DNA from: Polycladomyces abyssicola
Lineage (GTDB): Bacteria; Bacillota; Bacilli; Thermoactinomycetales; JIR-001
NCBI RefSeq assembly: GCF_018326425.1
Contig: NZ_AP024601.1
Span: forward strand, 1,786,001-1,850,000
DNA length: 64,000 bases
Direction: 5' to 3'
In this document: positions 6,135-48,580 of the stretch, piece after piece
Layout: the number at the start of each line of letters is the position of its first letter
How positions within the stretch are numbered: the first letter of the stretch is position 1
Notes under the pieces: model-generated
Told to the model about the DNA's origin: nothing
What the model saw: only the letters and a program-made list of their open reading frames with translations
The model's database searches: none
Made by a program: the position numbers and the translations under genes

Positions 6135-6165
6135 CGAACAAACCCGTCCTTTATCCATCTCTTTG

Positions 6166-6275
6166 GAGGCGTGTCTGGTGGTGACTTTCCCCGCTCGGTC
6201 CACCTGCGCCCTGCAAGGAAGCAGTTCATGGCTCCTACCCGGAGCAAAGGACGCAGGCATTCGCTTAGAGGAGGT
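6166..6275 (-). repeat. Dispersed repeat, copy 1 (inverted)
   Basis: Read on the minus strand, this begins CTCTAAGCGAATGC, continues through CTGCTTCCTTGCAGGGCGCA, and ends CACCACCAGACACGCC. The middle block of about 39 nt matches the copy at 41205-41245 with only a few differences, and the ends also correspond. It lies between convergent genes and has no coding potential. Confidence 0.65.
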
Positions 6276-6293
6276 TGTACAGCCGAGCAAGTC

Positions 6294-6326
6294 AACAAAC
6301 CCCGTCCATTGAGGACGGGGTTTGTT
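6294..6326. terminator. Bidirectional terminator for the nup operon and the convergent gene
   Basis: A 14-bp stem (AACAAACCCCGTCC and complement) with a 5-nt loop, 3 nt from the nupQ stop. It can serve both the minus-strand nup operon and the plus-strand phosphodiesterase-like gene. Confidence 0.8.
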
Positions 6327-6329
6327 GTG

Positions 6330-7265
6330 TTACCGGCTGTCTTTTTCATATGGTTTCCCGATCGCAGCCGGGGCTTCCGCTCTTCCGACGAAACCGGCCA
6401 ATGCGAGAATCGTCAGCACGTAAGGCAGCATATTGAGCACTTCGCTCGGTACATACTGTGTCCATCCGAACAATTGACCTATCAAAGCCAATGAGACTGC
6501 GAATCCGAAGAAAAGTGCGGCGAAAAAGGCGCCAAGCGGATGCCATTTGCCGAAGATCAACGCGGCTAATGCGATGAACCCTTGTCCAGCCACAGTGGAT
6601 TGGTTGAACTCACTGCCGATAGCGATAGACAACCCCGCACCGCCCAGACCGGCGAGCGCACCACTGATCATTACCGCCACATAACGCATCCGGATCACGG
6701 AAACACCAGCCGTTTCCGCCGCTTTGGGATGTTCCCCCACCGCACGCAGGCGCATCCCGAATGGCGTGTAATACAGGATAAAGTAGGAAGCAGCCACGAT
6801 GACAAAAGCCAGATACGTCGTGGGAAACGCGTTAAACAACGCGGGACCAATCACCGGAATGCTGTTCAGCCCCGGAATCGGCATACGGGACAACGTTTCC
6901 TGCACCACGGGCGTTTGTGCCTCCCCGTTGTACAGGTGTTTCACCAGGTAAACAGACAAACCGAATGCCAGAAAGTTGATTGCCACACCGCTGACCACCT
7001 GATCCGCTTTAAACGTGATTGAGGCCACAGCATGCGGCAGAGCAAATAATATGCCGGCCACCATCGCTGCCAATAACCCCAGCCACGGATTGCCGGTAAA
7101 GATCGTCGTCACCGCGGCGGCGAACGCTCCGATCGTCATTAAGCCTTCCAACGCGATGTTGACCACACCGGAGCGCTCCGAATACAGCCCACCCATAGCA
7201 GCCAAGATAAGTGGGGTCGAATACAATACAGTTGTTTGCAAGACGTTGGTCAATGTGTTAAGCAT
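6330..7265 (-). CDS. nupQ: Nucleoside ABC transporter permease NupQ
   Basis: A 311-residue, highly hydrophobic permease with the LYSERSGVVNIALEG motif characteristic of the second permease of BMP-type (nucleoside/simple sugar) ABC importers. Together with NupP it should form the membrane channel, energised by NupO and fed by lipoprotein NupN. Known B. subtilis NupNOPQ imports guanosine and other nucleosides; substrate here is inferred. The ATG lies 1 nt after the nupP stop, with its GGGAGGGG site in the nupP 3' end. Confidence 0.88.
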   Translation of the reverse strand: MLNTLTNVLQTTVLYSTPLILAAMGGLYSERSGVVNIALEGLMTIGAFAAAVTTIFTGNPWLGLLAAMVAGILFALPHAVASITFKADQVVSGVAINFLAFGLSVYLVKHLYNGEAQTPVVQETLSRMPIPGLNSIPVIGPALFNAFPTTYLAFVIVAASYFILYYTPFGMRLRAVGEHPKAAETAGVSVIRMRYVAVMISGALAGLGGAGLSIAIGSEFNQSTVAGQGFIALAALIFGKWHPLGAFFAALFFGFAVSLALIGQLFGWTQYVPSEVLNMLPYVLTILALAGFVGRAEAPAAIGKPYEKDSR

Positions 7266-14825: not shown

Positions 14826-14846
14826 AGTATTCACCAAACACGCCCT
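14826..14846 (+). repeat. Dispersed repeat, terminal fragment (copy 5)
   Basis: AGTATTCACCAAACACGCCC matches the end of the copy at 41258-41276 at about 16 of 19 positions. It touches the last codon of the yneR-like gene. Only this terminal block is recognisable here. Confidence 0.45.
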
Positions 14847-15144
14847 AGTCCATCTGATAGACAATCCTGTCCTCTCCACGGTCATACCGGATCACCAGTT
14901 GGTCAAAATCAGGATAGTACAACAGTTCGTCATCATCGATGAAAAACATGATACCCTCTACCTCGGCAATGACACCGATCTTCCTTGGTTTCTCCAATGA
15001 AAACCGCATCGAAAAACCCGTACCCGCAAAACAATTCGACTCTTGTTCCTGATAGTGTATCAGCAATCGAACCGTATCCCCTTCTTTCAGCGACAGTTCT
15101 CGACGAAACCAATCCAGTGCCTGTGGGGTAATCTCCAATTTCAT
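14845..15144 (-). CDS. yneR: HesB/IscA-like family protein (YneR type)
   Basis: A 99-residue protein beginning MKLEITPQALDWFRREL, matching the HesB/YadR/YneR group of the Fe-S biosynthesis (A-type carrier) fold. Only one cysteine is visible (NCFAGTGFS), and the C-terminal CxC of true IscA carriers is absent, so a cluster-carrier role is doubtful. The ATG at 15144 has AGGTGA 5 nt upstream. It is monocistronic, flanked by terminators. Other HesB-fold paralogues are possible. Confidence 0.75.
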   Translation of the reverse strand: MKLEITPQALDWFRRELSLKEGDTVRLLIHYQEQESNCFAGTGFSMRFSLEKPRKIGVIAEVEGIMFFIDDDELLYYPDFDQLVIRYDRGEDRIVYQMD

Positions 15145-36443: not shown

Positions 36444-36611
36444 TCGGCCGGACGTTATCTACGCTACAGTTTAGCCAAAATCATTATATCACAATCATTT
36501 CGTCGGATGCAATGAAACTGGAACGGTGTGGCAAAAAGGCGGGGAAACTTGACACGCGTTCGATGAAGGCGTCTGGACCTGCTTGAGTCACTACGTTTTC
36601 CCGAACGAACG

Positions 36612-36686
36612 GAGAACCGGAAGACGGGAATATAATCGCGAGCAATTCTCCCTCAAATGAAGCGAACATTGCCCGCGCCCCGTGCT
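36612..36686 (+). repeat. Dispersed repeat, copy 3 (left part only)
   Basis: This stretch aligns by eye with 41105-41180 at roughly two thirds identity, with a stronger block GAAGCGAACATTGCCCGC against GAAGCGTACTTTGCCCGC (16 of 18). The right half of the element is not recognisable here. No coding potential. Confidence 0.45.
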
Positions 36687-36705
36687 TCCGGTTCGGATCA
36701 GGGAT

Positions 36706-40998: not shown

Positions 40999-41103
40999 CG
41001 TCCGGTTCACCTCCCTACCATTTCGTCTCTTAAGAGTGTATCAGAAAGAGAAATAGGCGACTAGGCATCTCTGGTAAATCCGTAAGGTAGCAAATACTTT
41101 CCA

Positions 41104-41280
41104 TGGTGAGCGAAGACCCGGAAAGCGCAGGAATGAATTCGCGGGAAACTTCCCCTAAGCGAAGCGTACTTTGCCCGCATTTTGTGCCCCGGGGCGTAGC
41201 GGCCAGACCTGCTTCCCTGCAGGGCGCAGGTGGAACAAGCCGGGAAAACAATTGGTCAGTATTCACCTAACACGCTCAAG
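41104..41280 (+). repeat. Dispersed repeat, copy 2 (longest)
   Basis: The most complete copy, about 175 nt. The left block matches 36612-36686, the middle block (CTGCTTCCCTGCAGGGCGCA and following) matches the inverted copy at 6166-6275, and the right end (AGTATTCACCTAACACGCT) matches 14826-14846. It marks the polC side of the arsenic block. Confidence 0.65.
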
Positions 41281-41319
41281 GAGGTCGTTCGCTTCAGGTG
41301 CGGACATTTCGAAAATGAT

Positions 41320-48531: not shown

Positions 48532-48560
48532 CCCGATCACCGCCTTGTTTTTCAATGGCA

Positions 48561-48580
48561 AGGGCGTGTCTGGTGGTTGT
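48561..48580 (-). repeat. Dispersed repeat, terminal fragment (copy 4, inverted)
   Basis: Minus-strand reading ACAACCACCAGACACGCCCT matches the end of copy 1 (CACCACCAGACACGCC). It lies in the 72-nt gap between dxr and rseP. Confidence 0.45.

Follow-up and report, generated by a model that had tools for sequence, protein, structure and literature searches.

The window, a 64,000-nucleotide stretch of the Polycladomyces abyssicola genome, contains a near-complete MITE copy at positions 41061–41280 on the + strand, delineated by alignment to 45 genomic copies and to their 242-nt consensus, relative to which about 22 internal nucleotides are deleted. The copy is bounded by decayed terminal inverted repeats: on the left, CTAGGCATCTCTGGT (41061–41075, + strand), to be compared with CTAGGGYGTGTCTGGT in the consensus, and on the right, in the − orientation, ACCTAACACGCTCAAG as read on the + strand (41265–41280), which fits the end pattern with 4 mismatches. 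Between the repeats lies a structured core (41097–41247, + strand) with conserved stems, putative tandem G.A internal loops, and the CGGAGCGG.CA and CTTCCYTGCAGG loops. A preliminary description of this sequence gave 41104–41280 as the longest copy of a repeat; its right end, at about 41280, stands, whereas the real left end is at about 41061.

The covariance model R1, trained on the host genus and on G035, a genome from another family of the same order, was run across the window with filters off and with no window copy in its training set. It matches 41077–41247 (+ strand, E 1e-34, 126 bits), 36611–36697 (+ strand, E 2e-14, model positions 38–124), and 6186–6299 (− strand, E 1e-10), with no further match below E 0.1 in the rest of the window. 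The second of these is a core-only fragment (36607–36697, + strand), and the third belongs to a 5'-truncated copy (6164–6276, − strand) that consists of the right half of the core and the right end. In place of the left half of this copy, an unrelated terminator-like hairpin, AAACCCCGTCCTC..ACGGGGTTT, is found at 6290–6345. Two terminal fragments listed in the preliminary description are solitary element ends, each with 1 mismatch to CTAGGGYGTGTCTGGT: a right end, AGTATTCACCAAACACGCCCTAG, at 14826–14848 (+ strand; positions 1800833–1800845 of the host genome, G000), and a left end, CAAGGGCGTGTCTGGT, at 48559–48574 (+ strand; G000 1834562–1834574). The sites that had been proposed to share an element are, accordingly, pieces of one family.

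A 211-bp query (41090–41300) finds at least 40 matches in the 3,197,230-bp host genome (E 1e-106 to 4e-16; the best 40 of 99 candidates were scored), with E-values down to 1e-45 for non-self copies, and the covariance model finds at least 65 copies (65 matches among 66 candidates scored); copy numbers are lower bounds throughout. The end motif GGGYGTGTCTGGT, with at most 1 mismatch, occurs 86 times, compared with 10 times for its reverse. Therefore, further copies do exist and exceed the control, the two points on which the proposal of a repeat family depended. Its other particulars also hold: the family is dispersed and diverged (about 72–92% identity), its genome-wide matches lie in both orientations and, by crude ORF calls, mostly between genes. 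Most of the copies are diverged and many are truncated, with no clear orientation bias relative to neighbouring genes. In 5 of 23 host copies (L021, L039, L009, L011, and L014), the upstream ORF stops exactly on the TAG of the element end, that is, the insertion is at or near the stop codon.

Terminal repeats, empty sites, and a matching insertion sequence

The 242-nt consensus starts with TAGGGTGTGTCTGGT and ends with ACCAGACACGCCCTA, such that the element has terminal inverted repeats of 15–16 bp, (C)TAGGGYGTGTCTGGT; the 15-bp repeats are perfect when TAGGGCGTGTCTGGT, the other common form, is used. The whole consensus folds as one long interrupted hairpin. Among 72 distinct ends, the three bases preceding GGGYGTGTC are C or T in 86%, T in 68%, and A in 72%, and YTA in this position is what a YTAR target with a junctional TA would leave.

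Two congeneric genomes, G001 and G002, carry copies and ends in numbers comparable to those in the host. When the joined flanks of five host copies were compared with these genomes, two empty sites were identified. The copy at G000 2910574–2910795 is absent from G001, where the flanks form a contiguous 89% match, and present in G002; the copy at 965426–965669 is absent from G002 and present in G001, the flanks at this second site (L018/G002) being contiguous with a junction that is not cleanly alignable. At the first site, G001 has TTTGAC-CA-ATATGTC vs TTTAAC-TA-[element]-TC-TTATGTC in the host (alignment by eye, MAFFT having placed the junction wrongly), a configuration consistent with a duplicated dinucleotide that has since mutated. 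As far as target duplication in the host genus can be read from short, decayed flanks, YTA at the ends and this one dinucleotide fit TA.

One congener also contains an autonomous insertion sequence (IS) with the same ends, and the other a matching multi-copy IS end. In G002, a 957-bp IS with the ends CTAGGGCGTGTCTGGT / ATTAGACACGCCCTAG encodes two ORFs in frames offset by −1 near AAAAAAGGGG (near A6G4), both of which match NF033580 (IS5 family) above the cut-off, as well as PF13340/PF01609. This is an IS5-family (putatively IS427-like) element with an IS5-type DDE transposase that is possibly produced by −1 frameshifting. In G001, several contigs break within a repeated IS; its end, ATTCACCAGACACGCCCTAG, and the 3' end of the MITE share an identical 20-bp stretch, and the bases preceding ATTCACCAGACACGCCCTAG encode an IS-like C-terminus. 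The match between the MITE and either IS is limited to the outer ~12–20 bp, the body being unmatched. Another IS5-type element in G002 (C31) was rejected as a source given that its ends differ. A search of the host genome for a full-length parent IS or such a transposase found none, so that the host family looks stranded and decaying. From the similarity of the ends, the repeat was probably moved by an IS-encoded transposase that is coded elsewhere than the element itself.

The host element is a MITE: short and non-coding, with terminal inverted repeats, at least 65 dispersed copies, and two polymorphic sites, and with ends matching those of the IS5-family element in G002 and the multi-copy IS end in G001. 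Similarly to IS5-family (IS427-like) MITEs, it is intergenic, with polymorphic sites and a probable YTAR/TA target, and its terminal inverted repeats are also those of an IS5-family element whose two ORFs are in −1 frame. It departs from those MITEs in its inner module, which did not arise from the IS by internal deletion and is found again, between other ends, in other genera.

The folded core and its strand bias

The inner ~175 nt of the element form a folded core common to the covariance matches. The core CTGCTTCCTTGCAGGGCGCA that had been singled out in the preliminary description is part of this structured family, which is represented in several families of the class. When 20 copies taken from different genomes are aligned by sequence alone (mean identity 48%), the blocks AGCGGAG, TTTTGC, CGGAGCGG.CA, and CTTCCTTGCA are conserved, and RNAalifold recovers the same central stems, with both-sided compensatory changes in 12 of 14 pairs. 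The model-fitted alignment contains 202 double-change cells, vs 60 in shuffled and 27–48 in slid controls. The covariance modelling suggested in the preliminary description has thus revealed compensatory base-pair changes in a folded core. Two stems contain facing GA/AG steps as read from the sequences (GCGAC/GGAGC and GCGAAGAC/GTCGGAGC), which would be typical of tandem sheared G.A pairs. In the copies from L213 to L223, two loops, one following GCAAC and the other following CGGACAGT, differ in length and sequence from copy to copy and may be either neutral or guide-like; the stems and motifs beside these two loops stay fixed.

If the stems evolved neutrally or as double-stranded DNA, one-sided changes would be expected to produce G-U and A-C in equal numbers. 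In set A2, which was aligned by sequence, the ratio is 56 G-U to 5 A-C, vs 107:131 for the equivalent transitions at unpaired columns, and in a larger, model-fitted set, 181:75 in stems vs 326:290 at unpaired columns. The effect size is uncertain, the cells being non-independent and G-U having been permitted when the structure was predicted. In addition, A2 served to predict its own structure, a procedure favourable to G-U, and alignment A6 was fitted to the model. As there is a G-U excess in stems and none at unpaired sites, one strand seems to have been selected to fold, as RNA or as single-stranded DNA (ssDNA). Among the shared one-sided changes in A2, 12 are G-U and none are A-C, compared with 11:5 among the private changes, a difference that points to selection acting while copies were amplified and not on each copy once inserted. 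Folding energies do not help to tell the two strands apart, since the bias between them is equally present in shuffled controls.

One alternative, which we regard as unlikely although it is the strongest of the competitors, is that this is an ordinary dead MITE with a functionless core, in which the hairpin is kept by template-switching correction of imperfect palindromes during replication, and the spread reflects common descent with occasional transfer. Stem-loops are indeed common in MITEs (PMC10969869), most host copies are diverged and many truncated, and in the larger set, private stem changes are near 1:1 for G-U vs A-C. Template correction does not predict, however, that the non-helical motifs AGCGGAG, CGGAGCGG, and CTTCCTTGCA are as conserved between genera as the stems are, and both the 12:0 ratio of shared changes and the persistence of the core while the ends change speak against this explanation.

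Somewhat less likely again, in our estimate, is that the core acts as a ssDNA hairpin, for example, as the substrate of a hairpin-recognising transposase or integrase, and not as RNA. Folding of one DNA strand would create the same strand-specific pairing constraint, and the mobile copies bear ends of several kinds. G-T is more stable than A-C in DNA hairpins as well, so the strand signal is no proof of RNA. On the other side, the DDE transposases that own these ends act on double-stranded terminal repeats, and no HUH or tyrosine transposase was noticed beside the element in an incidental view of its surroundings. We prefer RNA over ssDNA because the internal loops are RNA-like. Neither a transcript nor a promoter nor a partner gene for the core was found, and in the host-genus element, only ~36 nt lie upstream of the core.

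Different ends around one core and its distribution

The ends around the core are INTERCHANGED, and they differ by genus. G035 contains the same body (positions 36–210, 71–79% identity) within different outer sequence. In G023, CAGGGCTGTTGATTA and TAATCAACACGCCTG enclose the core, and these ends match those of an element in G017 (CAGGCGTGTTGATTAGCCAA / CAGGTCTGTTGATTATCCAA) encoding an IS4-family transposase (NF033592, 207 bits vs a cut-off of 115), and direct repeats of 7–10 nt are located exactly at the ends of 4 of 10 copies with G023-type ends. The core copies in G017 itself have another end, CTAGAAGCGTTGTGA. Given the IS5-type ends in the host genus and the IS4-type ends in G023, one core is linked to no fewer than two clearly distinct DDE transposase families. 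A weaker case, resting on end similarity, is that of the G035 copies, the ATTTCAAAA-type ends of which resemble a resident IS5-like element.

Duplications of 20–29 nt, vs a cross-pair maximum of 12, flank 5 of 7 copies in the G262/G230 group, and the duplicated sequences are intrinsic-terminator-like hairpins; the ends of these copies are of the CAG..TGTAGACAAAG kind. The IS behind the terminator-targeting copies was searched for in G262 and not found; the PF01609 elements of G262 were rejected as the transposase source for its MITEs because their ends are not those of the MITEs. In L233, L235, L237, L210, and L214, the whole terminator hairpin is duplicated, with the element between two terminators.

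Comparison with related genomes, also suggested at the outset, places the element in the two congeners and the core in the wider class. R1 matches 21 of 42 genomes of the order, with 0 to at least 65 matches per genome and several genomes with none. A second model, R2, matches 64 of 399 genomes of the class, whereas among 398 genomes drawn from the phylum, five besides the host match, all weakly and mostly in part. One Planctomycetia match in a DNA-motif scan of the species collection was taken as chance. In the plasmid and phage collections, there was no match for the host consensus or for a larger unit from genus g48. In g48, the genomes of which presumably resemble Brevibacillus, and in G016, the core is within this ~520-nt unit (seen in L223, L213, L242, and L243), which also includes, upstream (−295 to −70), a second module that looks palindromic. 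L223 contains three units in tandem (1501–1678, 2020–2196, and 2538–2714; period ~518 bp). Separately, in G025 (L196), a core copy and its flank occur twice in tandem, nearly unchanged (1501–1679 and 1727–1905).

The preliminary description recognised no known repeat here, and in Rfam 15, at gathering and at permissive thresholds, no family matches at the element. The core resembles Rfam families in its covarying secondary structure and conserved loops and differs from them in having no counterpart in that release. We did not find the family described in a literature search that mostly covered papers outside subscription. A comparable repeat, bcr1, which the title of its description presents as specific to the Bacillus cereus group (Okstad 2004; listed in PMC2267715), is likewise a structured, mobile-looking intergenic repeat of Bacilli, of ~150 nt, but is reportedly confined to that group; the distinction is drawn from that title. 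REP/BIME, ERIC, and QMITE-type repeats are also dispersed, palindromic, and intergenic. Unlike these, the host element combines its stem with conserved internal loops and non-helical motifs, and, in distinction from REP/RAYT as well, which is associated with a tyrosine (HUH) transposase, its ends belong to identifiable DDE insertion sequences.

This distribution bears on the remaining alternatives. That the core is a functional host RNA, regulatory or insulating, which was duplicated by chance through transposition, appears improbable: the deep conservation of stems and loops and the mainly intergenic location of copies would suit such an RNA, but the range from none to at least 65 matches per genome within one order, including several genomes with none, and the unclear orientation preference would not. 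Chance similarity among intergenic sequences, for which nothing speaks except that the smallest fragments in the window carry little information, is refuted for practical purposes by the non-self E-values, the 86 vs 10 ends, and the nearly empty phylum control.

A structured module that probably travels in MITEs

The best reading would be a folded module that travels in MITEs of changing type, with a fold of one strand selected during spread. For the host, we consider it likely that the element is a trans-mobilised IS5-type MITE carrying an old structured module, one strand of which folded during proliferation. An IS5-family transposase supplied in trans would have recognised the CTAGGGYGTGTCTGGT ends and inserted the element at YTAR sites, duplicating TA; the transposase gene has apparently been lost from the host, and the copies would now be decaying. 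The ~175-nt module between the ends appears to be old, structured, and not IS-derived, to occur in one part of the class Bacilli, and to have been joined to ends from two or more IS types that are clearly distinct. Folding of one module strand would be required during proliferation, and the active form would be RNA, most likely a transcript with a stable fold. As to the molecular role of the fold, our guess is that, under read-through from flanking transcription, it renders the element tolerable or helps it to spread.

More tentatively, and with somewhat less than an even chance in our judgement, the module may be a selfish structured RNA or single-strand unit that is not itself a transposon and repeatedly takes the ends of unrelated IS (IS5-type, IS4-type, and terminator-targeting), such that the fold is what is conserved, with one transposition machinery exchangeable for another.

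In bacteria, a MITE is usually regarded as the remnant of a single insertion sequence. In the present case, several families of Bacilli share a folded core that has conserved loops, with ends that switch IS family. If this reading is true, the core would be a mobile RNA-like unit defined by its fold and would constitute a new high-copy family for Rfam, and it would become testable whether MITEs spread better for having a structured core.
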